Virus record (IMG/VR): IMGVR_UViG_3300030002_000011
Location: 1 to 64,000 of that record
DNA length: 64,000 nucleotides
Reading direction: 5' to 3' (one strand)
Source of the DNA: a virus
Each line of letters opens with the position of its first letter. Positions within the stretch are counted from its first letter, which is position 1. Of this stretch, positions 1-63,324 are shown piece after piece. A program made the position numbers and the translations under genes. A model generated the notes under the pieces. It had not been told where the DNA came from and ran no database searches. It worked only from the letters and a program-made list of their open reading frames with translations.

Positions 1-554
1 GGGACCGCAAGCTGGTGGTGGCCGACTGCACCGAGGCGGTGAAGGCCATCGAGCCGATCCTGCTGAAGTACGTCGTGCCGTTCGACTTCGAGGCCGACAA
101 GCACTTCGAGGCGGAGATCCTGATCAACCACCCGCGCACTGGGGAGCCCGAGCAGATCATCCTCAACGGCTACATGGACATCCTCGTGCGCGACGACAAG
201 GGCCGCTGGATCGTCTGGGACGTCAAGCACACCAAGGACGAGTCCTACTGGCGCAAGACCGTCGGCCAGCTCGGTTTCTACGATCTCGCCGTTGAGCTGA
301 TGTTCGGGCAGGCCACGGCCATGACCGGGCTCTTCCAGCCGCTGTGCAAGGAGCGGGTCAAGGCCTACAAGCCGACCGTCGATTCCAGAAACCAGCTCCT
401 CCAGAGGATCCTCGGCATGGCCAACGACATCCTGCTGGACATCAAGACCCCGGTCGAGGGAACTGGTCCCTGCGGTTTTTGTCCTACACGTCATGCGTGT
501 ACCAAGTTCGAGCCCATCATTGATAAGCAGGGCAAGAAGAGGATCTCAATGTGA
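1..554 (+). CDS. Cas4/RecB-family PD-(D/E)XK nuclease, 5' end outside window
   Basis: The frame is open from base 3, so the gene begins upstream of the window; a GTG at 15 is only an internal candidate. Counting from that GTG, D55, D69-V-K71 and Q85-x3-Y89 fit the PD-(D/E)XK core plus the QxxxY motif of RecB/Cas4 nucleases. Three clustered cysteines near the C-terminus (C153, C156, C162), with another near the N-terminus, resemble the Cas4 iron-sulfur ligands. Such proteins are single-strand DNA exonucleases used in phage recombination or end processing. The stop overlaps the GTG start of the HNH gene. The family is clear; the exact role is inferred. Confidence 0.8.
   Translation, partial: DRKLVVADCTEAVKAIEPILLKYVVPFDFEADKHFEAEILINHPRTGEPEQIILNGYMDILVRDDKGRWIVWDVKHTKDESYWRKTVGQLGFYDLAVELMFGQATAMTGLFQPLCKERVKAYKPTVDSRNQLLQRILGMANDILLDIKTPVEGTGPCGFCPTRHACTKFEPIIDKQGKKRISM
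381..392. promoter_or_regulatory. dispersed palindrome site, 1 mismatch
   Basis: GATTCCAGAAAC, core ATTC-CA-GAAA, inside the nuclease gene, read there as D-S-R-N. Confidence 0.5.
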
Positions 555-1114
555 CTGAGACATGGCTTCCCATCTTGGGGTATGGGGGCTACTACGAGGT
601 GTCCGATCTCGGCAGAGTTCGGGCTCTGGCTCGCGTTGTCACCTACTCCACTGGAGGGAAGCGAAGTTATCCGGGAAGGATTCTTGTTCCCTTCATGGGC
701 CCCAGAGGTTACTGGTTGGTGGCGGTGTCCTACAGGAGCAAGACGTCACTTCCTGCGGTTCACTCCTTGGTGGCCAAGGCCTTCCATGGACCTCGTCCTG
801 AGGGGCTGGAGTGCAGGCACCTAGACGGGGACCGAGACAACAACCGGGTGTCCAATCTTCAGTGGGGAACTCACTCGGAGAACCGACTGGACCAGATTGC
901 CCATGGAACTGATACCAAGCGGAATCGAACACACTGCCCTCGGGGCCATCCCTTGCAGGAACCCAATCTCTGCTTACGGCAGTGGGAGAACGGTCGCCGA
1001 GCCTGTAGGTCCTGTGCAGCAGCCAGAGAGTTCGTGTCCAGACATCCCTTAGCTGATTTCAAGCTGGAGGGTGACAGGTACTACAACCAGTTCGTTCTGA
1101 GCCTCAGCGCCTGA
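551..1114 (+). CDS. NUMOD4/HNH homing endonuclease
   Basis: A 187-residue protein starting at GTG in the GTGA overlap with the upstream stop. The N-terminus (W-x-P-I, then Y-Y-E-V-S-D-L-G-R-V-R) is a NUMOD4 DNA-binding motif. The segment with HSLVAKAF, ECRHLDGDRDNNRVSNLQWG and HSEN is the typical HNH core found in phage homing endonucleases. A CPRG...CRSC cysteine set near the C-terminus may bind zinc. It sits between a nuclease and small unknown genes and probably acts only for its own spread. Its codon use is less GC-biased than its neighbours, consistent with recent arrival. Confidence 0.85.
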   Translation: MTETWLPILGYGGYYEVSDLGRVRALARVVTYSTGGKRSYPGRILVPFMGPRGYWLVAVSYRSKTSLPAVHSLVAKAFHGPRPEGLECRHLDGDRDNNRVSNLQWGTHSENRLDQIAHGTDTKRNRTHCPRGHPLQEPNLCLRQWENGRRACRSCAAAREFVSRHPLADFKLEGDRYYNQFVLSLSA

Positions 1115-1126: not shown

Positions 1127-1147
1127 TGAGGGGAGAGGAGGCCAACC

Positions 1148-1629: not shown

Positions 1630-1644
1630 AGAGACGTCAACCCA

Positions 1645-1656: not shown

Positions 1657-1668
1657 AAGGCGGTCAGC

Positions 1669-2582: not shown

Positions 2583-2592
2583 GAGGCTCCCG

Positions 2593-3233: not shown

Positions 3234-4452
3234 CCAGATGAGCCTGCTCGAACTCAGCGAGCTGGAGGACGACCTTGTCCCCGAGATCCTGCCGTCGTCG
3301 GCGTCGCTGTCGATCAAGGCCGACGTCGCCAAGCTGAAGGCGCTGTTCTCCCGGGCCAACGGGGTCACACCCGTCCGGGAGATCGTGCCGGGCACGGCCT
3401 TCGCGCTGTTCGAGGCTGTTCCCACCACCTCCGAGGTGGCCGCGCATCTCCGGATCACGGCCACCGACGGGGAGCAGACGGTCTCCGTGGTGGAGGACGG
3501 TGTCGACGTCAAGGTGCCCGGCGCTGTCCTGCTGCCGCCCAAGCGGATGCTGGACATCCTGAAGCTGGCTCCGACCACCCGGGTCGACATCACTGTGGTG
3601 GGCTCCACCGCTCTGGTGCGCTCGGGCCGCGCCCGCTGGACCGTGCAGGTACCTGTGGGGGAAATGAACCTGCTGGGGCTCGACGAGGTTTCTGGAATCA
3701 AGCTGGCTCCTGTGCCGGTGGTTCCCTTCCTGTGCGCCCTGATGGCTGCCCGCAAGGCTGCCTCCACCTCAGACGCCCGGGTGTCCCTGATGCAGGTCAA
3801 GGTCAAGGACTCCGCCATCGTCGCCTGCGACGGGGGACGGCTGCACAAGGCCACCGTGGCGGGGCTCGACCCGGCCATGGACACCACCATCCCGGTGCGG
3901 ACGGTCGACGAGCTGATCAAGGCCCTCGACGGGGCCGACGAGTTGCTCATGGGCTTCGACGAGCGCCATCTGGTGTTCCGGGTGGGGGCCGACTCCATCG
4001 TGGCCCAGAGGATGCTCCTGCCGTTCCCTGACGTGCAGTCCCTGCTGCTCGGGCCGCAGATCACCAACACCCTCGGGCTGCTGGTGGATCGCAACGAGCT
4101 GTACGAGGCGATCAAGCGGGTGCGGATCAACGCCGACCCTGACATCGCCGTGGTGTCCCTCAGCATCGTCAGGGGGGCCCGTAGCGCCACGGACTGGGCT
4201 CTGGAGGTCAAGAGTAGGGACCGGGCAGGCAACACGGCGCAGGAGGTCGTGGAGTGCCAGTGGAAGGGCAAGCCGAAGGAGGTCTTCTACAACCATCACT
4301 ACCTCACCGATCTGCTGGAGGTGTGCATCGCCGACACGCTGATGCTGAGGATGGGCGGGGACACCAAGGCCAACCGCACGCCGCTGCTGATCGACGACAC
4401 GGACGCAGGGGTGATGGGCATCATCCAGCAGACGACGGACCACTGGTCATAG
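3226..4452 (+). CDS. dnaN-like: DNA polymerase III beta-like sliding clamp
   Basis: A 408-residue protein of the size expected for a three-domain bacterial beta clamp. The first ~20 residues are extra; from residue 25 the repeats of the clamp fold follow (SLSIKADVAKLKALFS, then VPVVPFLCALMAARKA, then LLVDRNELYEAIKRV at the start of each third). The C-terminus G-V-M-G-I-I-Q-Q matches the terminal strand that forms the partner-binding pocket. It would encircle DNA and tether the phage polymerase. Phage DnaX, delta-prime and delta homologues in the same window support the call. It is the last gene before an intrinsic terminator. Confidence 0.85.
   Translation: MSDQMSLLELSELEDDLVPEILPSSASLSIKADVAKLKALFSRANGVTPVREIVPGTAFALFEAVPTTSEVAAHLRITATDGEQTVSVVEDGVDVKVPGAVLLPPKRMLDILKLAPTTRVDITVVGSTALVRSGRARWTVQVPVGEMNLLGLDEVSGIKLAPVPVVPFLCALMAARKAASTSDARVSLMQVKVKDSAIVACDGGRLHKATVAGLDPAMDTTIPVRTVDELIKALDGADELLMGFDERHLVFRVGADSIVAQRMLLPFPDVQSLLLGPQITNTLGLLVDRNELYEAIKRVRINADPDIAVVSLSIVRGARSATDWALEVKSRDRAGNTAQEVVECQWKGKPKEVFYNHHYLTDLLEVCIADTLMLRMGGDTKANRTPLLIDDTDAGVMGIIQQTTDHWS
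3688..3699. promoter_or_regulatory. dispersed palindrome site, 1 mismatch
   Basis: GTTTCTGGAATC inside the clamp gene, read as V-S-G-I. Confidence 0.5.
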
Positions 4453-4534: not shown

Positions 4535-4546
4535 GATTCCAGAAAC
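4535..4546. promoter_or_regulatory. operator-like palindrome abutting P2 -35, 1 mismatch
   Basis: GATTCCAGAAAC ends 2 nt before the TTGACA of P2. A bound protein would block RNA polymerase at this promoter. Confidence 0.65.
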
Positions 4547-4548
4547 AG

Positions 4549-4577
4549 TTGACATGCAGAGCCCAAGTGACTATAGT
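4549..4577 (+). promoter_or_regulatory. sigma70-like promoter P2
   Basis: Perfect TTGACA (4549-4554), 17-nt spacer, TATAGT (4572-4577): the best housekeeping-type promoter in the window. It lies in a 158-nt gap between the terminator and ATG 4611, so it restarts transcription of the following block. Confidence 0.85.
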
Positions 4578-4610: not shown

Positions 4611-5012
4611 ATGGCTGCACTGCCCGACGGTCTCACGCAGGCCGACCTCGACCGCTACGCCCAGCTCGACGCTGGCATCGCCGCGCTCGCCGAAGAGCAC
4701 AAGATCCTCAACGCCAAGATCAAGAAGGCTCACCTCGACGCCGGTCTTTCCGGAAAGAAGACGCTGGTCTACCCCAGCGACAAGTACGGCGCGATCATCG
4801 TCAAGCTCAACGAGCAGCGCAGGCTCGACATGGAGGCACTGGCCGAGAAGTACGTCGAGGAGCAGTTCCCGCAGTACTTCATCCACTCCCTCGACACCAA
4901 GGCCATCCCCGCCGATGAGCTGGACGTCTTCCGTACCAAGGTCGTGCAGACCCTGTCCATCGACCGGGAGAACGCCGAGCCCGCCGTCTCGCCGAAGCGC
5001 GTGCAGGTCTGA
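4611..5012 (+). CDS. hypothetical protein, first gene of the P2 transcript
   Basis: A 133-residue protein beginning at ATG 4611 with a GAAGGA site. It is charged and mostly helical (residues 10-35 and 65-85 as long helices), with a short strand segment KTLVYPSDKYGAIIVKLN in the middle. There are no cysteines and no motif I recognise. Being first after the strongest promoter implies high early expression, as for phage host-takeover or DNA-binding proteins, but this is inference. Confidence 0.65.
   Translation: MAALPDGLTQADLDRYAQLDAGIAALAEEHKILNAKIKKAHLDAGLSGKKTLVYPSDKYGAIIVKLNEQRRLDMEALAEKYVEEQFPQYFIHSLDTKAIPADELDVFRTKVVQTLSIDRENAEPAVSPKRVQV
4746..4757. promoter_or_regulatory. dispersed palindrome site, exact core
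   Basis: CTTTCCGGAAAG, fully self-complementary 12-mer, about 170 nt downstream of the P2 -10 box, read as L-S-G-K. Confidence 0.7.
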
Positions 5013-6786: not shown

Positions 6787-6994
6787 CTCCACGATCATGG
6801 TGCTGGACGAGATCTTCGCCCACGTGAGCGCGGAGTACCTCGAACCGACAGGGCAGTTCCTGCGCGAGGTCGTCGACCGCACCGGGGTCCAGATCATCAT
6901 GGTCACCCACCAGCCAGAGTTCGCCCAGTACGCCGACCGGGTCTACAACTTCTCCACCACCAACGGCAAGACCGTTGTGAAGGACGTTTCCTGA
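6344..6994 (+). CDS. SbcC/Rad50-like ATPase, C-terminal half only
   Basis: A 216-residue protein beginning with a coiled coil (about residues 5-70). It then shows the second half of an ABC-type ATPase: a signature-like ARGGGLAAVIGFLLR near 125, Walker B IMVLDEIF near 150, and a switch histidine in MVTHQ near 187. There is no Walker A (GxxGxGK) anywhere in it, whereas Rad50, SbcC and T4 gp46 carry both halves in one chain. It may pair with an N-terminal half encoded elsewhere, or act as an ATPase-dead partner. Role in DNA end processing inferred. Confidence 0.7.
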   Translation: MDTLDSLVVRARQRRRQIDVAQGGVRAVLLRGKELTTEVSDLSALVEELDRVTVLLNSLGEERQLAAQSSIEELVTRGLRMIFDDTLSFHIVQAVKGKTAVVEFVVRTTLGNDVIETPVMDARGGGLAAVIGFLLRFVVMLMGRDPRDSTIMVLDEIFAHVSAEYLEPTGQFLREVVDRTGVQIIMVTHQPEFAQYADRVYNFSTTNGKTVVKDVS

Positions 6995-6997
6995 AAT
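6986..6997. promoter_or_regulatory. dispersed palindrome at a gene junction, exact core
   Basis: GTTTCCTGAAAT covers the last codons and stop of the Rad50-like gene and the first two bases of the next ATG (6996). Confidence 0.7.
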
Positions 6998-9192: not shown

Positions 9193-9878
9193 ATGTCGTC
9201 GTGACCTCCCTCCTGACCAAGGAGCCCGACCCGATGCGGGGCCGGAAGTGGGATGCCGATCCCTCGATTCTGGAAACGTGGGCAGCGTCCATCAAGGGTG
9301 CCACCCCTGTCGTGATCGCCGACGAACTCACCACCACCCCGCAGGGGGTGCAGCTGGTCAACTCCTCCGATCTGGCGTCTCCCAACGTCCCCTCCGGTGG
9401 CCCGTACTTCAACCGGTGGGTCTACTTCCTCCAGTGGCTCTACCTCAACGAGCACAGCCTCGACAAGGTGTGGCTGACCGACGGCTCGGACGTGACCATG
9501 CTCCGGGAGCCGTGGGATCAGATGGAGGAAGGCGTCCTGTATGTCGGCAGCGAGGAGCAGCACCTCGTGGGCTGCGACTGGATGCGCAACATCAACCACC
9601 ACCCCTCCCCCATCGAGCAGCTGTTCATCGACTCCGAGCGGGACCTGCTGCTGCTCAACGCCGGTCTGGTGGGGGGCCACGTCAAGACCGTGCAGGCGTT
9701 CCTCGCCGCACTGCTGGTGCAGTGGGCCGGAGCTGGCTGGCCCACCAAGTCGGACATGGCGATCTTCAACTTGACGGCGTATTGCAACGCCCCCGCCCGC
9801 GTCGTCACCGGAGAACTCGTACACACCACCTTCTGGGCCAACGCCGACAACGGCACAGCGTGGTGGCAGCACAAGTGA
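9189..9878 (+). CDS. glycosyltransferase-like protein with DGSDV motif
   Basis: A 229-residue protein starting at ATG 9189. Residues around 75-105 read N-R-W-V-Y-F-L-Q-W-L, then V-W-L-T-D-G-S-D-V, i.e. a strand ending in a D-x-x-D metal-binding motif, followed by LLLNAGLVGG, the acceptor-side motif common in GT-A nucleotide-sugar transferases that modify glycans. A C-terminal KSDMAIFNLTAY stretch fits the same fold. It probably transfers a sugar to a phage virion protein, to DNA or to a host envelope glycan; the substrate cannot be told. Confidence 0.6.
   Translation: MNVVVTSLLTKEPDPMRGRKWDADPSILETWAASIKGATPVVIADELTTTPQGVQLVNSSDLASPNVPSGGPYFNRWVYFLQWLYLNEHSLDKVWLTDGSDVTMLREPWDQMEEGVLYVGSEEQHLVGCDWMRNINHHPSPIEQLFIDSERDLLLLNAGLVGGHVKTVQAFLAALLVQWAGAGWPTKSDMAIFNLTAYCNAPARVVTGELVHTTFWANADNGTAWWQHK
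9266..9277. promoter_or_regulatory. dispersed palindrome site, 1 mismatch
   Basis: GATTCTGGAAAC inside the second glycosyltransferase-like gene, read as TCG ATT CTG GAA ACG. Confidence 0.5.
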
Positions 9879-10410: not shown

Positions 10411-11147
10411 TGACCAAGGCCATCTTCCTCACCGCCTACGACCGGCCCGAGCTGCTGGCCCGGACCATGCGGTCGTGGGAACTCGTCCGGGGCGTGCTCG
10501 GGGTGCCCTTCCTCGTGATGATCGAGCCCGGACCCAAGGCGGAGGAGTGCGCCGCCATCGTCGAGGCCTCCTTCGTGAGGATGGGCCACCTCGCGTCCCA
10601 CGTCGAGGTCAACCCCACCCGCTACGGTGTCCTCCACCACCCGTGGGTGGGCTTCGAGAAGATGTTCAAGAACTTCGACTTCGTCATCCGGGCAGAGGAC
10701 GACCTGTGCGTCTCCGACGACGTGCTGGAGTACTTCGACTGGGCGGAGGCAGCCTTCAGAGATGATTCTGAGGTGGCCACGGTGCACGCCTACACCGACG
10801 GTCCCGGATCCGACCCTGAGGTGGTGCAGGTCCTCTCCGAGTTCAACCCGTGGATATGGGGCACGTGGAAGAACGTCTGGCATGACGTCCTCGGCCCGAC
10901 GTGGGACCACGACTACTCGACCTTCAACGGCACCCCCGGCAACCAGTCGGGATGGGACTGGAACCTCAACACCCGGATCTTCCCCCAGCTCGGGCTGTCC
11001 GGTGTGTTTCCTGAAATGAGTCGCGTCGACAACATCGGCGTCTACGGCATCCACGGCACCGCTGAGAACTTCCGCACCGCCGAGAGCTTCCGTCCACTCC
11101 ATGCGCGTGGGGGGTATCGAATGAAGGGCCGATCTTCAGAGGTGTGA
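10407..11147 (+). CDS. family 2 (GT-A) glycosyltransferase
   Basis: A 246-residue protein beginning at ATG 10407 in an ATGA overlap with the methyltransferase. It opens with AIFLTAYDRPELLARTM, the N-terminal motif of family 2 transferases, and carries F-V-I-R-A-E-D-D-L near residue 92, the acidic metal/nucleotide-sugar site. W-G-T-W-K-N and W-D-W-N downstream fit the acceptor side. It closes the cassette, and its last codons contain the late promoter of the packaging genes. Confidence 0.75.
   Translation: MMTKAIFLTAYDRPELLARTMRSWELVRGVLGVPFLVMIEPGPKAEECAAIVEASFVRMGHLASHVEVNPTRYGVLHHPWVGFEKMFKNFDFVIRAEDDLCVSDDVLEYFDWAEAAFRDDSEVATVHAYTDGPGSDPEVVQVLSEFNPWIWGTWKNVWHDVLGPTWDHDYSTFNGTPGNQSGWDWNLNTRIFPQLGLSGVFPEMSRVDNIGVYGIHGTAENFRTAESFRPLHARGGYRMKGRSSEV
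11006..11017. promoter_or_regulatory. dispersed palindrome site, exact core
   Basis: GTTTCCTGAAAT inside the family 2 glycosyltransferase gene, 121 nt before late site a; codons GTG TTT CCT GAA ATG. Confidence 0.65.
11127..11143 (+). promoter_or_regulatory. class-1 (late) promoter candidate a
   Basis: GGCCGATCTTCAGAGGT, immediately followed by the GTG start at 11144. GCCGAT matches the -10 core of FliA/WhiG-type promoters. No conserved -35 box is visible. Confidence 0.6.
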
Positions 11148-12365: not shown

Positions 12366-14252
12366 GTGACCGTCTTGTGGACACCCACCTCAGCTGGCGC
12401 GGCGTCCCGCTTCGACATCGACCCGGGATACCACGCACGCTCGGCGGCGGAGGAGATCTTCGCTGAGGAGCCGGTACCCCTTCAGGTCTTCGTGCAGGAC
12501 AAGGGGTACCTCGGCGCGGAGTGGATGCTCTCCGACATCCAGTACGAGCTGGTCCGGGTGATCGAGCGGGTCTACCTCCAGAAGACCTTCATCGACATGG
12601 GCGACTGGTTCGGCGGCTACTGGGCCAAGCCCTACCCAATGAAGAACCTGATCGCCGCTGAGTGGGGCAAGGGTGGCGGCAAGGACTCCACCGTGCGCGT
12701 CGCGGCCATGCGGGTCGCCTACCTGCTGATGTGCCTGCGGTCCCCCCAGCGCTACTTCAACATGCCTGAGGACGACTCGATCCACATCCTGAACATCGCG
12801 GCCAACTCCGCGCAGGCCAACCGCGCGTTCTTCGAGCCGCTGACCCGGATGGTCAAGCGGGGCTGGTTCAAGGACAAGGCCGAGCCCAAGCGCGACACCA
12901 TCGAGTACGCCAAGAACATCACCGCCATTTCCGGCCACTCCGACGCGGAGTCGCAGGAAGGCCTGAACATCATCCTCGGCATCGCCGACGAGATCGATGC
13001 CTTCAAGGCTGCGGGCGAGATGATCGGTCAGGGCAACAGGGCCCGGGAGGCAAGCACCTCCGCTGAGTCGATCCTGAAGATGCTCAAGACCTCCGCCTCC
13101 ACCCGTTTCCCCGAGAGCTACAAGCGGGCGGCGATCTCCTACCCCCGCTACCTCGGCTCCACGATCCAGCAGCTGATCGCAGAGGCAGAGCAGGACATCC
13201 TCGACGTCGGCTTCGAGCAGTCGATCTACTTCGCCTCCGGCCCGTACGCCACGTGGGACGTCAACCCCCGTATTTCTGGAAAGGACGCCTTCGCTTCGGA
13301 CTACCGCAAGGACCCCGAAGAGGCAGCGGCCAAGTACGAGTGTCGCCCCTTCCGCGCCACCGACTCCTACTTCCGCAACCCGGCCATCTTCCGGCAGGCC
13401 GTCGACCGCCCGGACCAGCCCATTCAGGTCGACTACAAGGTTGTCGAAACCACCAGCAAGGCCACAGGCCAGACCGTGCGTGGCTGGGAGCCGGTCTTCA
13501 CCTTCGCCGCCGACTTCCGTCCCGTCGCAGGGGCCCGCTACGCCATGCACGGTGACCTCGCGGTCAAGGGCGACAGGGCCGGGATCGCCATGAGCCACGT
13601 CGAGAAGTGGGTTGATCAGACCGAGACCATGGAGGACGAGACCGGCTACGTCTCCTCCTACACGACCACGGCTCCCCACGTCCGCAACGACTTCACCATC
13701 AACTTCTCCGCCGACATCGCCGCCATCGACTACGAGCGGGGCGAGAAGGAGGTCCTCCCCCGGGAGATCCAGATCCGCTGGGCCCGCAAGCTCTGCTTCG
13801 AGCTGATCAAGCGCGGCTTCTGGATCGGGTCCTTCACCTTCGACGGCTTCCAGAGCGTCGACACGATCCAGATCCTGACCTCCCACGGCATCCTCTCGGA
13901 GCGGGTTTCCACCGACCTGAAGCCTGATCTCTGGAAGACCCTGAAGGACGTTGCCAGCGACAGTCGGCTCAAGATGCCGTTCAGTCAGCGCCTCCAGAAC
14001 GAGCTGGAGGGCCTGTCCCGAGTTAATGGCAAGGTTGACCACCCCATGAACGGGTCGAAAGACGAAGCAGACGCCTTCGTGTGCTCTATCGTGGGAGCAA
14101 TCGGTATAGGCGGCGAGGAAACCCCCGACGGCGAGGCCATCGACTCAGGCGGCTCTCTCTTCATGATCGGGGAGCAGCTGGCTCCACTGGAGTATGGACA
14201 GGGAGCCTTCGAGCTTCCATTCGGCATGAAGGGGATGAGCATCGGTGTCTAG
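12366..14252 (+). CDS. terL: terminase large subunit
   Basis: A 628-residue DNA-packaging motor. GTG 12366 directly follows the previous stop. Walker A is WGKGGGKDST (residues 100-109) and Walker B is ILGIADEI (203-210), with D208 and E209 as the acidic pair. The C-terminal nuclease half begins around M-H-G-D-L-A-V-K-G-D near residue 395 (first catalytic aspartate) and ends with K-D-E-A-D-A-F near 590 (last acidic cluster), the RNase H-like layout of TerL. Length is normal. Its end overlaps the portal start by 8 nt. Confidence 0.9.
   Translation: MTVLWTPTSAGAASRFDIDPGYHARSAAEEIFAEEPVPLQVFVQDKGYLGAEWMLSDIQYELVRVIERVYLQKTFIDMGDWFGGYWAKPYPMKNLIAAEWGKGGGKDSTVRVAAMRVAYLLMCLRSPQRYFNMPEDDSIHILNIAANSAQANRAFFEPLTRMVKRGWFKDKAEPKRDTIEYAKNITAISGHSDAESQEGLNIILGIADEIDAFKAAGEMIGQGNRAREASTSAESILKMLKTSASTRFPESYKRAAISYPRYLGSTIQQLIAEAEQDILDVGFEQSIYFASGPYATWDVNPRISGKDAFASDYRKDPEEAAAKYECRPFRATDSYFRNPAIFRQAVDRPDQPIQVDYKVVETTSKATGQTVRGWEPVFTFAADFRPVAGARYAMHGDLAVKGDRAGIAMSHVEKWVDQTETMEDETGYVSSYTTTAPHVRNDFTINFSADIAAIDYERGEKEVLPREIQIRWARKLCFELIKRGFWIGSFTFDGFQSVDTIQILTSHGILSERVSTDLKPDLWKTLKDVASDSRLKMPFSQRLQNELEGLSRVNGKVDHPMNGSKDEADAFVCSIVGAIGIGGEETPDGEAIDSGGSLFMIGEQLAPLEYGQGAFELPFGMKGMSIGV
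13272..13283. promoter_or_regulatory. dispersed palindrome site, exact core
   Basis: ATTTCTGGAAAG inside the large terminase gene, read as I-S-G-K. Confidence 0.65.
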
Positions 14253-26034: not shown

Positions 26035-26046
26035 ACTACTCTGGCG
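26035..26046. promoter_or_regulatory. dispersed palindrome in the capsid gene leader, 1 mismatch
   Basis: CTTCCCAGAAAC, 20 nt upstream of the GTG of the major capsid gene. Confidence 0.45.
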
Positions 26047-27563: not shown

Positions 27564-27824
27564 GTGGACGAGGTATTTCTCGAAATAGCTGCCAGTGACG
27601 ACCCCATCGTTGAAATCTTCGTGGACACCACTGAGGTCGTGGAGGTCTTCGAGGACTCCTTCGGCCCACAGGGATCCGAAGGACCAGAAGGCCCCGTAGG
27701 ACCTTCAGATACCACTACGGCACTTGCTTTGGTCGATCACATAGAGAGCACGGACCCACATCCGAACGTGGTGTCCACCACCGCATTCGAGGATTGGCTC
27801 GACGCCATGACTCCCGGGATCTGA
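27564..27824 (+). CDS. short protein with collagen-like triplets
   Basis: An 86-residue protein starting at GTG 27564 (GGGGGTG upstream). It is acidic, with a short collagen-like run G-P-Q-G-S-E-G-P-E-G-P-V-G-P in its middle and a helical end (TTAFEDWLDAMTPGI). Gly-x-y triplets are typical of phage fibre stalks. It probably forms a trimeric stalk or linker for the fibre genes that follow. Confidence 0.55.
   Translation: MDEVFLEIAASDDPIVEIFVDTTEVVEVFEDSFGPQGSEGPEGPVGPSDTTTALALVDHIESTDPHPNVVSTTAFEDWLDAMTPGI
27575..27586. promoter_or_regulatory. dispersed palindrome site, exact core, fully symmetric
   Basis: ATTTCTCGAAAT, 12 nt into the collagen-like gene; codons GTA TTT CTC GAA ATA. Confidence 0.7.
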
Positions 27825-33546: not shown

Positions 33547-33558
33547 GTTTCCAAAAAG
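33547..33558. promoter_or_regulatory. dispersed palindrome in a gene gap, 1 mismatch
   Basis: GTTTCCAAAAAG in the 36-nt gap before the glycosyltransferase gene, just upstream of its AAGGAGG. Confidence 0.5.
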
Positions 33559-50759: not shown

Positions 50760-52490
50760 TTGCCACTCAACTTTGACGTCCGGAACTTCACCGAAGCTCG
50801 CCGTGAGCAGCTCGCGTGGAGGATCCACCAGTCCGTGAACTGGAAGCTCCCGCCCCTGAAGGTGTGGAACTACGACCTGTGCCGCATCCATGCGCGCGGG
50901 TGGGTCGAGGAGATCCGTGACACCGACGGTGAGGTCAAGACCCACACCGTCTACGACCGGCCCAAGCCCGGCTGCCGGGACTGTGGGATCCACTTCCGCA
51001 GGCACCAGCACATCGGGGTGGCGTGGCTCTATTTCAAGAAACACGCCCTGCTGGCTGACACCATGGGATCGGGCAAGACCACCGAGGCTGGCGGGCTGAT
51101 CGCCATGCTGATCGAGACCGGGGAGCTGTCCCTCTTCCGTGACAGATCCAGCGCCCACGGTGGCAAGGGTCGAGTCATCATCGTGCCCCGGTCCCCCGCC
51201 CTCCACCAGTGGCGCACCGAGCTTCTCCGGATGATGCCCAGCCTGAACATCCTCGTCTCCGAAGGCACCCGCAAGCAGCGCACCCAGTTCTACCTCCAGC
51301 CGTGGCAGGTCCTCCTGATCGGGCCTGAGATGCTGCGCAACGACTACCAGCTGCTGGAGAACTTCGACCTCTCCCTCTTCCTCACCGACGACATCGACGC
51401 CCTCCGCAACCCCACCACCGAGACCTCCTACGTGCTGGACCGGATGGGTGCCCGGGGGGTCGAGGGCCTGCGTCCCGGCACCGACCGCTACGTCATCATG
51501 ACCGGCACCCCCCTCCAGAAGCGCCTGCCCGAGCTGCACGCGGTGCTGGACGGCATCGGGGGCACCCTCGCGCTGGGCAGCATGGACTCCTTCGTCCACC
51601 GCCACGTCCGCAAGGCCACCATCACCGAGTACGACCGGAAGTCAGGCAAGGACATCCGCAAGGAGGTCGTGGTCGGCTACCGGGACCTCGGTACGGTCAA
51701 GGCCCGGATCGCCCCGCTCGTGCTCCGCCGCACCGCCGCCGACCTCGACGACGTCGACCTGCCCACGATCATCCCCAACGACGTCATGCTCGACCTCTAC
51801 CCCGTGCAGCGGGCCAAGTACACCGAGCTGCGCAAGGGCGTGCTGAAGATCATCCGCGAGGAGGGCACGCAGGTGAAGCGCCCCAACGCGCTGGCCAAGA
51901 TCCACTACGGTGCGGCCATCTGTGCAGGGCTCGCCGCGCTTGGGGAAGAGGACGGCCCCGGGACCAGCGTCAAGCTCGACTGGGTGGTCAACCAGCTCAC
52001 CGAGGGTGGGCTCAGCGAGCGCGGCGAGAAGGTGGTCGTGTTCGCCAACCTGAAGAACACCGTCAGGGCCCTCCAGATCCGGCTCAAGGAGGAGGGTGTG
52101 GGCTTCGTCACGGTGTGGGGGCAGGAGAACGACAAGGTCAAGCGCGCAGCCTCACAGGAGCGGTTCTGGACCGACCCGAAGTGCAAGGTGCTGATCGGCA
52201 CCAAGGCCATCGAGCAGTCCCTGAACCTTCAGGTCTCCCGGCACCTCGTCAACATTGACATGATCTTGAACCCAGCGAGAATGGAGCAGTTGGCCGGACG
52301 TATTCGCCGCGACGGCTCGGCCTTCCAGCACGTCTACGTGCACAACCTCCTGACCATCAATACGCAGGAGGAGAAGTACCTCCCCCTGCTGGAGCGTGAA
52401 GCAGCGCTGGCCGCGCACATCTGGGACGAGGATTCCCAGCTGTTCACTGCCCTCTCACCCTTGGCCCTTCTACAGCTCATTTCCGGATGA
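50760..52490 (+). CDS. SNF2/superfamily 2 helicase
   Basis: A 576-residue protein. I prefer TTG 50760, nine bases after AGGAGG; GTG 50739 would lie upstream of that site. Motif I is DTMGSGKTT near residue 100, motif Ia VIIVPRSPALHQW near 138, motif II reads L-F-L-T-D-D-I-D (D-D-I-D in place of DEAH), motif III Y-V-I-M-T-G-T-P-L, then C-terminal motifs with VVVFANLKNTVRAL near 420, K-V-L-I-G-T-K-A-I-E-Q-S-L-N-L and Q-L-A-G-R-I-R-R. It would remodel or translocate on DNA, possibly in recombination or origin opening. Confidence 0.85.
   Translation: MPLNFDVRNFTEARREQLAWRIHQSVNWKLPPLKVWNYDLCRIHARGWVEEIRDTDGEVKTHTVYDRPKPGCRDCGIHFRRHQHIGVAWLYFKKHALLADTMGSGKTTEAGGLIAMLIETGELSLFRDRSSAHGGKGRVIIVPRSPALHQWRTELLRMMPSLNILVSEGTRKQRTQFYLQPWQVLLIGPEMLRNDYQLLENFDLSLFLTDDIDALRNPTTETSYVLDRMGARGVEGLRPGTDRYVIMTGTPLQKRLPELHAVLDGIGGTLALGSMDSFVHRHVRKATITEYDRKSGKDIRKEVVVGYRDLGTVKARIAPLVLRRTAADLDDVDLPTIIPNDVMLDLYPVQRAKYTELRKGVLKIIREEGTQVKRPNALAKIHYGAAICAGLAALGEEDGPGTSVKLDWVVNQLTEGGLSERGEKVVVFANLKNTVRALQIRLKEEGVGFVTVWGQENDKVKRAASQERFWTDPKCKVLIGTKAIEQSLNLQVSRHLVNIDMILNPARMEQLAGRIRRDGSAFQHVYVHNLLTINTQEEKYLPLLEREAALAAHIWDEDSQLFTALSPLALLQLISG
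51031..51042. promoter_or_regulatory. dispersed palindrome site, exact core
   Basis: ATTTCAAGAAAC in the helicase gene; codons TAT TTC AAG AAA CAC. Confidence 0.65.
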
Positions 52491-53233
52491 AAGCAGTGAC
52501 AATGACCGCCGCCACCCCCGTCCCCCTCTCCGACTACCAGAGCGAGTTGGTCAGGACCCACGTGGGCCTTGCCCAGAGCATTGCAATGTCTTTCTGGAAA
52601 CGAGCCGCATCGGAAGTGGACCGCGACGAGATCGTGGCCATCGCCTATCAGGGGCTGATCACCGCCGCCCAGAGGTACGAACCCAACATCGTCCCGGAGA
52701 ACGACCCGGACGTGGCGCTGCCCCCTGTTGCACTGACGTTCGGCCAGTACGCCAAGCGCCGCATCGGGGGAGCCATTCAGGACTGGATGCGCCAGCTGGA
52801 CCACGTCCCCCGCAGGCAGCGCACCATCTACAAGGACATGCAGGAGCTGGCCCCCGGCAGGAGCCCTGAGGAGACCGCAGAGATCCTCGGGATCGACGTC
52901 AACCGGGTCCGTGCGATCACCCACGCAGTCGAGTGCCCCCCGGTCTCACTGGACGACATGGCAGGCGACAGCGACCGGGGCAACATGGCTCCCCCAGCTG
53001 AGGGAGGCACCGAGGGATCAGTCGCAGCCCACATGCTTCAGGAGGCCATGGTCGAGGTCATGGAGGGGATGCCGTCGTTCGAGAAGTCGGTCATCGTCCT
53101 GCGGTACTACATGGGCATGAGCTTCCCCCAGATCGCCGCCGAGCTGGGCTCCAGCGTGTCCACCGTCAAGGTCACCCACCAGCAGCAGATCCTGCTGATC
53201 CACGCCGCCATGGTCCAGACTGCGCGCTCCTGA
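52487..53233 (+). CDS. FliA/WhiG-like RNA polymerase sigma factor
   Basis: A 248-residue protein starting at ATG 52487 in an ATGA overlap with the helicase stop. Region 2 includes V-D-R-D-E-I-V-A-I-A-Y-Q-G-L and F-G-Q-Y-A-K-R-R-I-G-G-A-I-Q-D-W-M-R; region 3 has L-D-H-V-P-R-R-Q-R and E-I-L-G-I. The block RRIGGAIQDWMRQLDHVP closely matches the R-x-R-G-A-I-x-D-x-L-R-x-x-D-W-V-P block of FliA/WhiG sigma factors. Region 4 (SFPQIAAELGSSVSTVKVTH) is the -35-binding HTH. It may direct host polymerase to the late GGCCGATCTT promoters. Confidence 0.85.
   Translation: MKAVTMTAATPVPLSDYQSELVRTHVGLAQSIAMSFWKRAASEVDRDEIVAIAYQGLITAAQRYEPNIVPENDPDVALPPVALTFGQYAKRRIGGAIQDWMRQLDHVPRRQRTIYKDMQELAPGRSPEETAEILGIDVNRVRAITHAVECPPVSLDDMAGDSDRGNMAPPAEGGTEGSVAAHMLQEAMVEVMEGMPSFEKSVIVLRYYMGMSFPQIAAELGSSVSTVKVTHQQQILLIHAAMVQTARS
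52590..52601. promoter_or_regulatory. dispersed palindrome site, exact core
   Basis: CTTTCTGGAAAC, 104 nt into the sigma gene; codons TCT TTC TGG AAA CGA. Blocking elongation here would silence the sigma factor. Confidence 0.65.
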
Positions 53234-53738: not shown

Positions 53739-55191
53739 ACACTCCCAGATCGTCCTCTCGGCCATCTTGGCGGGCAGGCGCGATCTGCTGGAGAAGGCTG
53801 TCGCCCACCTGACGCCAGCCCACTTCCCGGAGAAGGTCCACGCCGACCTCTTCACCATGCTCATGCGCTTCTCGGACTACACCGGGGGCGCGGTCATGCC
53901 GCTGAAGTACCTCGACGACAACCTCCGTGGCCGCATGGAGCCGGGCAAGGCTCAGCTGTTCACCGAGACCTACGAGATGCTGTCGGAGACCACGACAGAA
54001 GATTCTGAGTTCGCGTGGTCCCTCCAGCAGCTGCGCGAGCTGGCTGCCGACAAGACCACAGGCGAAGCCCTGACTGAGGCCATGGAGATCCTGCGCCGAG
54101 GCAAGACCATCGACAACCAGACCTATCAGGGCCACAACGATGCCCGCGCTCGCCTGCTGGAATCGTTTCAGGAAATCGACCGTGAGCTGGTTCGGCAGGA
54201 CGCGCCGGAGGGGGACCTCGCAGACGAGGCCACCGAGATGAAGGCCGACTACGCCGAGCGGAAGAACGCGCGCCTCAAGGGTGTGTCCTCCGGCATCCGG
54301 TTCGGCATCGACGAGCTGGACCGCAAGATCGGTGGGCTCCAGCCGGGAGAGCTGGTGCTGCTCGCGGGCTACTCCAGCGACGGCAAGTCCTCCCTGTGCG
54401 TCCAGCTCGCGTGGAGCGCCGCCGTGGAGCAGGGACAGAACGTGGTCTTCCTGACCACCGAGACCCTGCGTCCCCAGATCCGCCGCAAGATCATCGCCCG
54501 CCACTCCAAGCTGCCGATCTTCGAGACACCCGAGGGCCTTAACACCCGGGATCTGAAGGCAGGCACCTTGACGGATGAGCAGGAACTCATCCTCCCCCGG
54601 GTGATCGACGACCTCGCCAAGAACCCCGCCTACGGCAAGATCTACATCGCGCAGGTCCCTCGGGCGGCAGGCATCGCCAGCATCGAGCAGAGGCTGCTGC
54701 GGATCCAGCGGAAGTTCAACATCAAGCTGGTCATCGCCGACTACCTCGCGCTGCTGATCGCCGAGCGCAGACGCACCACGGCCCGGGAGGAGTACGCCGA
54801 GGTGCTGAAGAACGCCAAGCTCCTGTCGGTCGCCTTCGACAACGGGCGGGGAGTGGCCTTCGTGTCCCCGTGGCAGGTCTCCAGACAGCACAGGGAGGCC
54901 GCAGAGAACCTCGGGCAGTACACGTCCGCCGCGCTCTCCGAGACGGCTGAGGCGACGAACTCCTCCGACGTGATCGTCAGCCTGCTGGCCCCCACCGACA
55001 ACACCGACCGGCACGCCGACGTCACCTTCCAGATCCTGAAGAACCGGGACGGCGAGACGGCCAACGGCATGATCGTCGAGGTCGACTACGCCACCTGTCA
55101 CTTCCGCAGCAAGCGGATGCTGGGAGCCCTCGGTACGGGTGGTCTCGACTACTCCACCAACGGCACCATGGAAAGCCTGCTGAGCGCCTGA
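53722..55191 (+). CDS. dnaB-like: DnaB-like replicative DNA helicase
   Basis: A 489-residue protein. TTG 53722 is chosen, with GGAG six bases upstream; TTG 53710 is the alternative. An N-terminal helical domain (residues 1-105) and linker lead to the RecA-like core: F-G-I-D-E-L-D-R-K-I-G-G-L-Q-P-G-E-L as the entry, Walker A GYSSDGKSS near 215, FLTTETLRPQI near 243 and Walker B LVIADYLALL near 337, followed by P-W-Q-V-S-R. It would unwind the phage fork as a hexamer. Length is normal for DnaB. It is followed by a class-2 promoter. Confidence 0.9.
   Translation: MASASEHSQIVLSAILAGRRDLLEKAVAHLTPAHFPEKVHADLFTMLMRFSDYTGGAVMPLKYLDDNLRGRMEPGKAQLFTETYEMLSETTTEDSEFAWSLQQLRELAADKTTGEALTEAMEILRRGKTIDNQTYQGHNDARARLLESFQEIDRELVRQDAPEGDLADEATEMKADYAERKNARLKGVSSGIRFGIDELDRKIGGLQPGELVLLAGYSSDGKSSLCVQLAWSAAVEQGQNVVFLTTETLRPQIRRKIIARHSKLPIFETPEGLNTRDLKAGTLTDEQELILPRVIDDLAKNPAYGKIYIAQVPRAAGIASIEQRLLRIQRKFNIKLVIADYLALLIAERRRTTAREEYAEVLKNAKLLSVAFDNGRGVAFVSPWQVSRQHREAAENLGQYTSAALSETAEATNSSDVIVSLLAPTDNTDRHADVTFQILKNRDGETANGMIVEVDYATCHFRSKRMLGALGTGGLDYSTNGTMESLLSA
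54165..54176. promoter_or_regulatory. dispersed palindrome site, exact core
   Basis: GTTTCAGGAAAT in the DnaB-like gene; codons TCG TTT CAG GAA ATC. Confidence 0.65.
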
Positions 55192-58230: not shown

Positions 58231-58514
58231 GCGAAGAGCTGTGCGAGAAGACCGACATGCCGAAGTATTCGTGCGCCCACTGTCAGGGCATCAAGGAGGA
58301 ACCCGTGGCTGTTTTCGGAAACGCTGATGTGCAGGAGTTCGAGCTGATCGGACGCCGCTTTCAGGCTGTCTACGGCGGGGTGTGCACGATCAACTTCGAC
58401 CACATCGTCAAGCGGCAGGACTGGGTCTCCAAGGTCCAGTTCTCCGACAACCCGATGCTGCCGGTGAGCGGTGTGGCCTGCGCCCAGTGCGTCCGGGTCC
58501 TGCCGCACGCCTGA
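58227..58514 (+). CDS. small protein with two CxxC motifs
   Basis: A 95-residue protein starting at GTG 58227, overlapping the delta-prime stop. C-A-H-C near residue 16 and C-A-Q-C near 86 could together bind one zinc. Between them is a beta-rich middle (EEPVAVFGNADVQEFELIG). It is encoded between two clamp-loader genes and may be an accessory. No family recognised. Confidence 0.55.
   Translation: MSEELCEKTDMPKYSCAHCQGIKEEPVAVFGNADVQEFELIGRRFQAVYGGVCTINFDHIVKRQDWVSKVQFSDNPMLPVSGVACAQCVRVLPHA
58311..58322. promoter_or_regulatory. dispersed palindrome site, 1 mismatch
   Basis: GTTTTCGGAAAC in the CxxC gene, read as V-F-G-N. Confidence 0.5.
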
Positions 58515-60215: not shown

Positions 60216-62821
60216 CCACTCGCAACTACGGAGCCCTCCGGGAGGCCTACGGGTCCAAGGGTGCGGTCTCCTTCATCGACCGGATCACAGCCAGCGGTAA
60301 GCCCTTCGACTTCGACATCGAGGCGGGCTACACCGGGGACGACAAGAAGGGTGTCTCCCTCCAGCAGTACCACCCCGACTACCTCGTGGTCGGCATCTCC
60401 TTCACGGTCTCCACCGAGTGGGCCCGCTACATCCCCTTCGCCCACGACAGCGGCGGCAACATCGACGACATCGTCCCGGTGGCCCGCGCCTTGTGGCGGC
60501 TGCTCAGCTCCGGGCAGGGGATCGCCCACAACGCAGCCTACGAACTCAAGGGCATGTCCCGGTGGTTTCGTGAAACGTTGTGGAACGACGACGAGCTGGG
60601 CGAAGAGATCCGACGCACCAAGGGCATGTTCCCGATCCTCGCTGACACGATGCTGCTGGTCTGGCTCGCCGCCTGCTACGACCCGCTCCGCGTCGGCAAG
60701 GACCTGAAGTCGGTGGCCAAGGCCGCGTTCGGCATGGAGATGACCCACTTCGACGACCTCTTCCCCACCACTGACACCGACCTCGGCCCGGCCATGAAGC
60801 GGGGTGGCAAGCCGTACATCCGGTTCAACACCCGCAACTCCTACAGCCCCGTGATCGTGGGCTACGCCTGTGAGGACTCCGTCGCCTCCTTCATGGTCTG
60901 GGAGAAGCACTACGAGGCCCTCAAGGACACGTTCATCTTCAAGACCGAGATGGCCCTGCTCCCGGGACTGGTGGAGATGGAGGCCGGGGTCATCGATCCG
61001 GAGACCGGGGTCGCCTCCGGCAACATGTTCTTCCACTGGCCCAACGTCCGCAAGAAGTCCGAGGAGGCCCTGCGCTTCGCCACCCTCATGGGTGAGGAGA
61101 TTCAGGACCAGCTGGGCAAGCGGCTGAACAAGACCATCAACATCAACCTGAACTCGGTCCCGCAGCTGGCCAAGGTCCTGTTCGACGAGAAGCCCGACGG
61201 CCTCGGCCTGCCAGTGAAGGTGCGCTCGGAGAAGACCGGGGCACCCAGCACCAGCGACGACGCCCTGAAGGTGATTGCCAAGTCCGACCCGATCATCAAG
61301 ATGATCCTTGAGTACCGGCAGGTGGTGAAGCTCAACGGGTCCTACCTGACCAAGTTCATCAACGAGCTGGGCTACTCCGGCACCGGCTACGTCTTCCCCA
61401 ACCACAACCAGTTCGGTGCCCTCACCGGGCGGCTCTCGGTGGATCAGGTCAGCTACCAGCAGTGGCCCAAGCCGTACCACTTCCAGCTGCTGTCCGGGCT
61501 CACCTTCGACCTCAACTTCCGGGACCTGTTCATCTCCCCGGACCACTTCCGGATCGTCGGCTTCGACTACGCCAACGTGGAGATGCGGATCGCCGGGGCC
61601 CTGTCCGGTGAGCGCAAGATCATCGACGCCTTCAACAACGGGCTCGACCTCCACAAGTCCACCGCCTCGGCCACCTTCAAGGTCAGCCTCGAAGATGTCA
61701 CCAAGAAGCAGCGGCAGTCGGCCAAGACCCTGAACTTCGCCACCCTCTTCGGGTCCGGTGCAGGGAACATCGCCGAGATGCTGACCAGCCCCTCCGACCC
61801 GGTGACCAAGGAGGACGCCGAGCAGATGCTGGAGGACTACTTCGCTGGGTACCCAGCGCTGGCCGATTGGATCGCCAGCCAGAAGGCGCACGGTCGTGAG
61901 TCCAAGGAGGTCCGCACCCACTTCGGTCGGCTCTACACCATCTGGGAGCACTACCAGCCCAAGGAGTGGATCAAGGCCAAGGGTGACCGGATGTCGGTCA
62001 ACGCACCGATTCAGGGCACCGCCGCCGACATCCTCAAGATCGCCATGGTCCGTGCCAAGAAGGCCATCAAGGAGGCCGGGCTGGAGGACCTCGTCCGGAT
62101 GACCCTGACCGTCCACGACGCGCTGGAGTTCCTCGTCCACGAGTCCGTCTCCACCCAGCAGGTCATCGACCTGATCGAGCCCTGCGTCAACTTCCCGGTG
62201 CCCGGCTTCCCGCTGGAGATCCGGGCGGACTGGCACGAGGGCTACCAGTGGGGTGCCCAGACCGAGGTCCGGCTCGACGAGAACAAGCAGATCAAGAGCT
62301 TCGACATCGAGGTGGAGCTGCCGTGGCTGAAGGAGTCCCACTACTGGGAGGGCTCCACGCTGCACGAGGTGCTGGACCAGTACTACGCGTGGGAGGCAGG
62401 CTTCTTCGGCTTCTCCGCCCCGTACTACGCCACCCGCAACCCAGACTTCTCCCTGCCCGAACCCGCAGATGCCTCCCAGCAGCCCGACGTTGCCGCTGTG
62501 GAGCCTGAGGAGGAGGACCCGGGGTGGTTCCACAGCGCGGAGCACAACGCCGCACTGCTGCCCCCCAAGACCGCCACGGTGACCATCTCCGAGATGCCCG
62601 ACGAGGAGCAGTGGCTGAAGTTCACCACCTACCTCGACTTCCGGCAGGGTGTGGACACGGTCAAGGTCGAGACCCCGGAGGGTGTCGTCACGCTCGACGG
62701 CACGTTCCGGATCTCCCCGGACGATCAGCCAGCCATCAGCCTCATCCTCGGAGGGGCCGGTCTGGTGATCGCTGACGACGTGGCCGACGCCGACGACGTG
62801 ATGGCAGGGATGCTGGTATGA
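60212..62821 (+). CDS. polA-like: family A (Pol I-type) DNA polymerase with extra C-terminal domain
   Basis: An 869-residue protein starting at GTG 60212. The proofreading domain shows ExoI D35-I-E37, ExoII H-N-A-A-Y-E (E where Pol I has D) and ExoIII Y-A-C-E-D. Polymerase motif A is F-D-Y-A-N-V-E-M-R (~450), motif B KQRQSAKTLNFATLFGSG (~500), motif C T-V-H-D-A-L-E-F (~633), with Ala replacing the usual Glu of V-H-D-E. After residue 650 comes a ~220-residue extension; 788-852 resembles the C-terminal domain of PolIII alpha. It is the replicative polymerase, probably clamp-dependent. Confidence 0.9.
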   Translation: MTTRNYGALREAYGSKGAVSFIDRITASGKPFDFDIEAGYTGDDKKGVSLQQYHPDYLVVGISFTVSTEWARYIPFAHDSGGNIDDIVPVARALWRLLSSGQGIAHNAAYELKGMSRWFRETLWNDDELGEEIRRTKGMFPILADTMLLVWLAACYDPLRVGKDLKSVAKAAFGMEMTHFDDLFPTTDTDLGPAMKRGGKPYIRFNTRNSYSPVIVGYACEDSVASFMVWEKHYEALKDTFIFKTEMALLPGLVEMEAGVIDPETGVASGNMFFHWPNVRKKSEEALRFATLMGEEIQDQLGKRLNKTININLNSVPQLAKVLFDEKPDGLGLPVKVRSEKTGAPSTSDDALKVIAKSDPIIKMILEYRQVVKLNGSYLTKFINELGYSGTGYVFPNHNQFGALTGRLSVDQVSYQQWPKPYHFQLLSGLTFDLNFRDLFISPDHFRIVGFDYANVEMRIAGALSGERKIIDAFNNGLDLHKSTASATFKVSLEDVTKKQRQSAKTLNFATLFGSGAGNIAEMLTSPSDPVTKEDAEQMLEDYFAGYPALADWIASQKAHGRESKEVRTHFGRLYTIWEHYQPKEWIKAKGDRMSVNAPIQGTAADILKIAMVRAKKAIKEAGLEDLVRMTLTVHDALEFLVHESVSTQQVIDLIEPCVNFPVPGFPLEIRADWHEGYQWGAQTEVRLDENKQIKSFDIEVELPWLKESHYWEGSTLHEVLDQYYAWEAGFFGFSAPYYATRNPDFSLPEPADASQQPDVAAVEPEEEDPGWFHSAEHNAALLPPKTATVTISEMPDEEQWLKFTTYLDFRQGVDTVKVETPEGVVTLDGTFRISPDDQPAISLILGGAGLVIADDVADADDVMAGMLV
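60565..60576. promoter_or_regulatory. dispersed palindrome site, exact core, fully symmetric
   Basis: GTTTCGTGAAAC in the polymerase gene; codons TGG TTT CGT GAA ACG. Confidence 0.7.
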
Positions 62822-63324
62822 GCAACGAGTCCGACTTCGAGGCCCAGATCATGGCGTGGGTCACTGAGACGCTGGAGCTTCGCCACGGTGAGGCAGGGGA
62901 CCCCAAGGGCAGGCTGCGCGGTGCTGAGCAGGAGAGCATCGCGGAGATGACCGACCTGCTGCTGCGGGTCAGGGCACGCGCCGACCGGGTCGACGAGCTG
63001 CTGAGCAAGGTCACCCTCGCTCGGGGCCGGGCACGTAGGGCCAAGGAGGAGGCAGCCTTCACCGCTGACCGAGCCCTGATGCAGGCCACCCAGATCCGGG
63101 GGGCGAAGAGGACCGAGTTCTCCTCCGCCGCCGAGCGGGCAGCCGACGCCAAGCTGGATTCGTTTGAGGAAAGAAGGGTGGCTTATCTTAGGGACAGATT
63201 GGTATCGGTTACCAATGATGCCCACGAAGTGATTTCACAGGTTCACTGGCAGCTGGACGCCATCCGCAAGGACCTGCGCGCCTCGCTCCACGCCCTCCAG
63301 TTCGAGTCCTCGCTGGAACGGTGA
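62818..63324 (+). CDS. coiled-coil protein of unknown function
   Basis: A 168-residue protein starting at ATG 62818 in an ATGA overlap with the polymerase stop. It is almost entirely helical with heptads from about residue 38 to 150 (IAEMTDLLLRVRARADRV, then a basic stretch RGRARRAKEEAAF, A-T-Q-I-R-G-A-K-R-T-E-F). Proteins of this type follow polymerase genes in several actinophages, but I know no function. DNA or RNA binding through the basic helix is possible. Confidence 0.6.
   Translation: MSNESDFEAQIMAWVTETLELRHGEAGDPKGRLRGAEQESIAEMTDLLLRVRARADRVDELLSKVTLARGRARRAKEEAAFTADRALMQATQIRGAKRTEFSSAAERAADAKLDSFEERRVAYLRDRLVSVTNDAHEVISQVHWQLDAIRKDLRASLHALQFESSLER
63162..63173. promoter_or_regulatory. 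dispersed palindrome site, 1 mismatch
   Basis: GTTTGAGGAAAG in the coiled-coil gene; codons TCG TTT GAG GAA AGA. Confidence 0.45.

Follow-up and report, generated by a model that had tools for sequence, protein, structure and literature searches.

The stretch of DNA considered here, called the window throughout, comprises bases 1 to 64,000 of a virus record 65,593 bases long (IMGVR_UViG_3300030002_000011). Its genes include those for terminase, portal, major head protein and tape measure protein, and scattered through it is a short palindrome, TTTCNNGAAA, whose halves TTTC and GAAA are separated by two bases. The same phage is represented by a 104,213-base contig, IMGVR_UViG_3300031521_000027 (G002), which is 99.998% identical to the window; a window coordinate equals the G002 coordinate minus 8. 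A second species, species B, is represented by contigs G008, G004 and G007 and probably L139, and its alignment with G002 covers 55,045 bases, 85.2% of them identical. Among named phages the nearest is the 133-kb Microbacterium phage Magritte, the sole megablast match to a 24-kb query (window 10000-34000), with 76.7% identity over 6%.

Abundance and location of the palindrome

A first-pass annotation had counted 19 exact palindromes in the window by eye, and we found all 19, the core beginning one base past each 12-mer start that it quoted. It also listed 20 sites with one mismatch, of which 19 are correct and one, at 26035, is wrong, a TTCC..GAAA match lying about 9 bases earlier. Its expectation of fewer than one copy agrees with the 0.06 predicted from half-site frequencies, a 316-fold enrichment. 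Markov sequences of order 1-5 contained at most 2 copies (100 runs each), and the runner-up palindrome with two four-base halves (gap 0-15, at least 6 copies) was enriched only 5.5-fold. We therefore rejected chance and base composition as the source of the signal. The same halves occur five times with a spacer of one and once with a spacer of five, and not at all with spacers of 0, 3, 4 or 6-11. The sites, with the one promoter-like sequence of the window, are listed below.

4747..4756, exact palindrome inside gene 4611-5012, about 170 nucleotides downstream of that gene's operator-bearing promoter; kept in species B
6987..6996, exact palindrome at the end of gene 6344-6994; kept in species B
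11007..11016, exact palindrome in gene 10407-11147; kept in species B
13273..13282, exact palindrome in terminase gene 12366-14252; kept in species B
14691..14700, exact palindrome in portal gene 14245-16128; kept in species B
19326..19335, exact palindrome in gene 17633-23923; unalignable to species B
27576..27585, exact palindrome near the start of gene 27564-27824; unalignable to species B
31248..31257, exact palindrome in gene 31185-31724; kept in species B
31627..31636, second exact palindrome in gene 31185-31724; kept in species B though NN changed
34492..34501, exact palindrome in gene 33580-34740; kept in species B
38636..38645, exact palindrome in tape measure gene 36675-41090; kept in species B though NN changed
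42129..42138, exact palindrome in gene 41937-42788; unalignable to species B
47572..47581, exact palindrome in gene 45804-50516, apparent internal repeat; unalignable to species B
47686..47695, exact palindrome in gene 45804-50516, apparent internal repeat; unalignable to species B
49192..49201, exact palindrome in gene 45804-50516, apparent internal repeat; unalignable to species B
51032..51041, exact palindrome in gene 50760-52490; kept in species B
52591..52600, exact palindrome in sigma-factor-like gene 52502-53233; kept in species B
54166..54175, exact palindrome in gene 53722-55191, a putative DnaB-like helicase (one member of the scanned set matched DnaB_C); kept in species B
60566..60575, exact palindrome in gene 60212-62821, putatively DNA polymerase I-like (named from its sequence and its Magritte homolog); kept in species B
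4536..4545, plus strand, one-mismatch operator-like site ATTCCAGAAA, 3 nucleotides before the -35 box TTGACA; core kept in species B
4549..4577, plus strand, strong promoter-like TTGACA-N17-TATAGT before gene 4611-5012
382..391, one-mismatch site ATTC..GAAA; kept in species B
3689..3698, one-mismatch site TTTC..GAAT; kept in species B
9267..9276, one-mismatch site ATTC..GAAA; kept in species B
16921..16930, one-mismatch site TTTC..GAAT; kept in species B
33548..33557, one-mismatch site TTTC..AAAA, 20 nucleotides upstream of gene 33580; altered in species B
58312..58321, one-mismatch site TTTT..GAAA

The longer contig G002 contains 35 exact copies of TTTCNNGAAA, where 0.10 are expected, and 10 further copies with a spacer of one. 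Two one-mismatch forms are strongly enriched in it: TTTTNNGAAA (14 copies vs 0.05 expected) and ATTCNNGAAA (10 vs 0.14). Together with the exact sites they total 59 in 104 kb. Four other one-mismatch forms are present at 1-3 copies where 0.01-0.07 are expected, two are enriched 2-3-fold, and four are at or below expectation. By our gene calls, none of the 19 exact sites in the window and 8 of the 35 in G002 are noncoding, and the coding sites are read in all three frames (12, 9 and 6). The sites at 47572, 47686 and 49192 share one gene and similar flanks; they are apparently copies of an internal repeat and not independent.

Conservation and promoter placement

The codon-preserving shuffle that the first-pass annotation proposed as a check gave a clear result: G002 has 24 in-gene sites, and 300 synonymous shuffles within genes gave a mean of 0.47 and a maximum of 3. 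Its second check, conservation in relatives, points the same way. In species B, 17 of the 18 alignable exact sites of G002 are exactly kept (17 of the 35 were unalignable and are not counted), and the single changed site retains a spacer-one form at the same promoter. Within the window, 13 of the 19 sites are alignable and all 13 are kept. The reverse comparison is similar, with 17 of 20 alignable species B sites (of 26) exact in G002 and near forms at two of the remaining three. At aligned sites the identity of the core is 99.3%, compared with 85.2% overall, and the background is low, since TTTC outside the sites is kept in 36.6% of cases (n=41) and GAAA in 57.1% (n=42).

The positions at which the encoded protein is indifferent are the most informative. 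All 36 degenerate core positions are unchanged between G002 and species B; degenerate T is kept at 15 of 15 positions against a background of 41.5%, and degenerate A at 13 of 13 against 49%. Because every silent core position is kept, selection acts on the DNA itself. The proposal that rare TTT codons are used to keep the pattern was right in kind, as phenylalanine is encoded by TTT 32 times and by TTC 1021 times in the plus-strand genes of G002. The synonymous shuffles, the conservation in species B and the use of all three frames exclude protein motifs as the cause, and the shuffles and degenerate positions likewise reject codon bias. A restriction or modification site would be expected to be avoided rather than conserved. 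These sources, chance included, are thus virtually eliminated. An RNA hairpin was also rejected, on the reasoning that a 4-bp stem with a 2-nucleotide loop cannot close. Since the DNA letters are kept even where the protein is indifferent, a regulatory protein very probably recognises the signal. The core of the first-pass interpretation, a dispersed DNA operator that goes beyond protein motif and composition, is therefore strongly supported; the link to early promoters, the variants in other phages and the candidate regulator described below were outside its view.

We searched for promoters with the pattern TTG[AC]C-N16-18-TANNNT followed within a few bases by ACA, and we use "early" as judged from position and gene type. 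G002 contains 18 such promoter-like sequences, 17 in the right-hand small-gene region outside the window and one inside it (4536-4577), where the promoter and its one-mismatch operator-like site are conserved in species B. Of the 18, 13 have a palindrome with a spacer of 1 or 2 and no more than one mismatch in the 30 nucleotides upstream, and 11 of these 13 palindromes are exact; among random 30-mers, 0.9% have an exact palindrome and 1.7% one with at most one mismatch. The distance to the -35 box is 3-4 nucleotides at 11 of the 13 and 20 nucleotides at the other two, and distances of 5-8 nucleotides are seen in the species B contigs and L139. By eye, the palindrome at G002 66434 (gene at 66517) overlaps a promoter, TTGTTT-N17-TATCGT, with a second variant just downstream; both are present in species B. 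Because the palindrome occupies a preferred spot beside strong promoters, we regard it as a member of an operator family, and its flexible placement near or over the -35 box suggests repression.

The in-gene copies do not look like promoter sites themselves. Among the 19 exact sites below 64 kb, only that at G002 13281 (minus strand) has TTGAC within 16 nucleotides, and we rejected in-gene promoters as an explanation; among near forms below 64 kb this is true of G002 1653 (minus strand) and of the promoter at 4543. Scans of viral contigs with the promoter pattern gave 40 and 17 stretches, which above 50% G+C came only from the two species and contig L185. In ten other whole viral records, TTTCNNGAAA occurred 1-8 times and a reversed control pattern 1-6 times, about equally. 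Two further features of the promoters were observed. In several of those in G002, by eye, an ATG directly follows the -10 box, so that they look leaderless, and several in G002 75285-100187 have, between the -35 and -10 boxes, a second element like TAGGTACAT that nearly duplicates their own -10/start sequence.

Related phages and a candidate regulator

Magritte and a further relative, G010 (IMGVR_UViG_3300045450_000050), have no exact copy of TTTCNNGAAA, and we therefore rejected an identical motif shared across the whole phage group. Instead, as judged from their genomes, species-specific palindromes appear at promoters in several phages of the group. Magritte carries ATTTCAGAAAT sites, and many promoters in Magritte and G010 share a layout of palindrome, weak -35 box and GTTAGCGCGT element. 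Sequences fitting the last two parts of this layout number 10 in Magritte and 16 in G010, and WTTCN(1-2)GAAW (at most one mismatch) lies within 25 nucleotides upstream of 7 and 5 of them, respectively, compared with intergenic backgrounds of 4.9% and 3.3%. In G016, 7 of 31 TTGAC promoters have a near palindrome, against a genome background of 2.8%, and in G013 (IMGVR_UViG_3300048851_000105) the one such promoter has none. G013 has 11 TTTCNNGAAA sites, five of which are CATTTCNNGAAATG, located in and between genes; one of its palindromes lies 7 nucleotides upstream of the ortholog of window gene 33580 in this distant relative. Inside genes, Magritte has 11 WTTCNGAAW sites where codon shuffles give 0.95, and G013 has 17 WTTCNNGAAW sites where they give 1.28. 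G010 showed no in-gene enrichment over codon shuffles (2 vs 0.85 and 1 vs 0.58). Among the phages tested, the in-gene spread is strongest in the phage of the window.

Other repeats were seen in these relatives. In G032 (IMGVR_UViG_3300036831_000148), a more distant relative, positions 54789-137322 contain 26 copies of CTTGACNNNNGTCAAG, 25 of them intergenic and each with TTGAC; this appears to be a different palindromic, operator-like repeat, and a profile search did not find the g108 gene discussed below in this record. A second promoter-like element of G013, spread over positions 20162-105122, is the palindrome GTTACNNNNGTAAC; it has eight copies and a further 14 with one mismatch, and 19 of these 22 are intergenic. 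G010 86872-97441 holds 8 of that genome's 11 GGGAG-N7-CTCCC hairpins, seven starting GGGAGTCT and each with an GTCACGCGCTA promoter-like element nearby; these hairpins are probably terminators between early units.

The likeliest regulator of the palindrome, judged from its distribution, position and predicted fold, is g108, an 83-residue protein encoded at G002 83042-83293, outside the window. Its AlphaFold2 model has helices at residues 2-36, 41-48, 52-59 and 65-74, with a mean predicted local distance difference test score (pLDDT) of 81.8 and block means of 88-95 over residues 1-60; the predicted fold is a long helix followed by a helix-turn-helix (HTH). The model resembles the DNA-binding parts of a transposase, sigma region 4, DeoR and TrpR with Z scores of at most 5.4, a similarity that alone could reflect a common arrangement. 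It is also like small HTH proteins of actinobacteriophages such as Gordonia phage Syleon (template-modelling score 0.68 by query, root-mean-square deviation 1.4, 61 columns); this match has a Foldseek E-value of 0.27 and 21% identity, E-values for the group are about 0.2 or more, and the annotations name no target site. A sequence search of the PDB with query A3 returned nothing below E 0.03, and a scan with HTH pair A4 hit nothing beyond the source of that pair.

A profile search of 36 records for g108 gave 7 matches, of which that in G035 is weak and has an internal stop. The Magritte homolog is gene 154, and in Magritte, G010, G013, G014 and G016 the homologs adjoin an AAA ATPase gene (g109) or lie within 0.7 kb of it. 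We compared 12 genomes or contigs of 97-140 kb. In the six with the HTH gene, WTTCN(1-2)GAAW occurs at 103, 17, 23, 4.8, 1.7 and 2.7 times expectation (other spacers 0.8-2.4), and in the six without it at 0.6-2.3 times (other spacers 0.7-2.4). Related palindromes are thus found in six of six phages with the gene, weakly in G014, and in none of six without it. This link is a correlation only, because G014 is weak and the gene-carrying phages are closer kin. In G002, Magritte and G013, the 120 or so nucleotides before the HTH gene contain a TTTC-type palindrome. Among 72 site-gene pairs, the HTH gene is the sole family with an upstream palindrome in all four genomes; two other families have a site in common in G002 and G013, and a further two do so in Magritte and G010.

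Other candidates were considered. The XRE-type g110 is present in G002 and otherwise has weak matches only in G015 and G031; the sigma-factor-like g56 and g64 and the HTH_17-like g63 (below the Pfam cut-off) were also examined. The window itself has sigma-factor-like genes at 52502-53233, with Sigma70 regions 2 and 4, and at 56789-57457, so judged by sequence; homologs of both occur in all seven relatives compared. A histone-deacetylase-like gene, with homologs in Magritte and G010, lies at G002 92185-93414; the one protein in the scanned set that matched PF00850 (E 3.8e-51) was assigned to it by sequence. G001 and G002, from different samples, stop at the same left base, and the contig of the window starts 8 bases later. 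L139 extends about 9 kb further left. The shared end may be where the assembly broke at a repeat or where the genome ends. For the right arm of this phage, viral scans gave known contigs only.

Proposed function and alternatives

We think it on balance probable, from the sequence evidence, that the palindromes are dispersed operators of a phage-encoded repressor acting on early promoters, with g108 its likeliest identity and the in-gene copies serving as roadblocks or decoys. TTTCNNGAAA and its near forms TTTTNNGAAA and ATTCNNGAAA would be bound by a sequence-specific, probably dimeric protein that would occlude the -35 region of early promoters and would control its own gene. Less firmly, the same protein may also bind the copies in middle and late genes, where it would form roadblocks to transcription and hold those genes silent until the early programme is over, in a way comparable to the presumed action of stoperators. 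For the in-gene copies, we favour roadblocks over a decoy timer or a genome organiser.

Several observations weigh against this proposal. Near forms are less conserved than exact sites, with 9 of 15 alignable TTTT- or ATTC-type sites kept, and 5 of the 18 G002 promoters have no palindrome. In G014 the motif is only slightly enriched, and a near palindrome is found at 1 of 7 promoters, against a genome background of 3.3%. The six-versus-six comparison is uncorrected for kinship, and 5 of 163 G002 proteins (g26, g57, g66, g75 and g120) are distributed similarly to g108. A search with the single g108 sequence found three of the five other carriers and the rest needed a profile, Pfam HTH matches to g108 are all below threshold, and the species B sequence stops before the position of the HTH gene. 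Magritte has other genes annotated as DNA-binding (47, 60, 137, 234 and 239). The HTH gene of G010 is immediately preceded by a palindrome of a different type, GTTAGCGCGTAAC. A repressor bound inside the late genes of a lytic phage could hinder late transcription. Finally, by our geometry the site centre lies near -43.5, which is also the position of a class II activator.

Activation of early promoters, by contact with sigma region 4 or alpha from that position and with passive in-gene sites, is an unlikely explanation. The near-constant placement 3-4 nucleotides upstream of the -35 box at 11 promoters would suit it, and so would the frequency of palindromes (at most one mismatch) at the weak -35 promoters of Magritte and G010, many of them TTGTGC. 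However, the promoters of G002 come close to the consensus and should work without an activator, spacings of 5-8 and 20 nucleotides and overlap with the -35 box are also found, and the conservation of silent positions in the in-gene copies is left unexplained. It is rather unlikely, though conceivable, that in an apparently lytic phage the in-gene palindromes serve as decoys by which genomes are counted. On that view, a fixed pool of the HTH repressor or activator would be titrated out as the sites, tens per genome, replicate, and early promoters would switch at a set genome number. Such a replication-coupled timer, if it exists, would be written into the silent positions of structural genes.

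Sites of Noc, SlmA, MatP and ParB on chromosomes offer analogues for a role in genome organisation (bridging, anchoring, condensation or segregation), with the promoter sites a by-product. The in-gene palindromes are present across all modules, and with near forms included their spacing in the first 64 kb is slightly more even than random (coefficient of variation 0.70, P 0.019). This evenness is weak: exact sites alone gave P 0.055 in the first 64 kb and 0.043 in G002, and all sites of G002 gave 0.117. The preferred placement at promoters speaks against such a role. No ParB domain (PF02195) scored over cut-off in 11 records, in which the contigs of the window's phage are incomplete, and G016 gave one weak partial match (E 4.8e-5). 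With no ParB among the families listed in a domain scan and none over cut-off in those records, we rejected a ParB- or Noc-type protein. Genome organisation is quite unlikely. Exploitation of a host regulator is improbable as well. Phages with different variants may have different hosts, but the variants track the phage-encoded HTH gene and lie upstream of it. Weaker evidence comes from cellular genomes, where the best 80 of 119 stretches with the operator-promoter pattern were single matches in scattered phyla, one from Terrimesophilobacter; among these matches listed there was no support for a cellular regulon with the same pattern.

Returning to the repressor proposal, the closest analogy is with cluster A mycobacteriophages such as L5 and Bxb1. 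These phages have many genome-wide copies of one repressor-binding sequence, the stoperator, together with an operator at an early promoter, and the sequence varies between related phages (PMC3029335, PMC5712189). The palindromes resemble this system in their many copies over the genome (35 exact in 104 kb) and in the operator-like site at early promoters. However, the stoperators of these temperate phages are asymmetric 13-mers that lie mainly between genes and have a single orientation relative to transcription (PMC3029335, PMC5712189), whereas the sites here are palindromic, with both halves enriched and conserved, and lie mostly inside genes. The contrast drawn by the first-pass annotation with asymmetric stoperators is borne out by PMC3029335. 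Because asymmetry and mainly intergenic location, two defining features, both fail, we do not file the palindrome as a stoperator; by analogy, it appears to work like the cluster A system while being distinct from it.

Two other systems invite comparison. The SPBRE elements bound by MrpR of prophage SPbeta are a repeated master-repressor operator at several promoters, like the palindromes here; they differ in having a 15-bp motif, a recombinase-like repressor and a temperate phage, and the regions named there are promoter and intergenic (PMC10516654). The KorB operators (OB) of plasmid RK2 serve one plasmid-wide regulator and lie 4-10 bp or far upstream of target promoters, but KorB is a sliding clamp that binds cytidine triphosphate and is related to ParB (PMC11790492), and the 11 phage records gave no ParB domain over cut-off.

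The lifestyle of the phage bears on these comparisons. Integrase and recombinase families (PF00589 and PF07508) matched none of the 11 records, those of the window's phage being incomplete contigs, while controls matched in 14 and 3 of 14 genomes; no integrase or repressor is named in the Magritte annotation. Dispersed operators have been described in temperate phages, where their presumed role is to silence the prophage. A description of this motif was not found in full-text searches of the open-access literature, whose coverage is incomplete. Here, strong selection maintains a symmetric operator within structural genes, and the operator is tied to early promoters and, by correlation, to one small HTH gene, so that what in-gene operators are for can be tested directly. 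More broadly, the silent positions of coding sequence in large phages can hold a second code, apparently a regulatory one.

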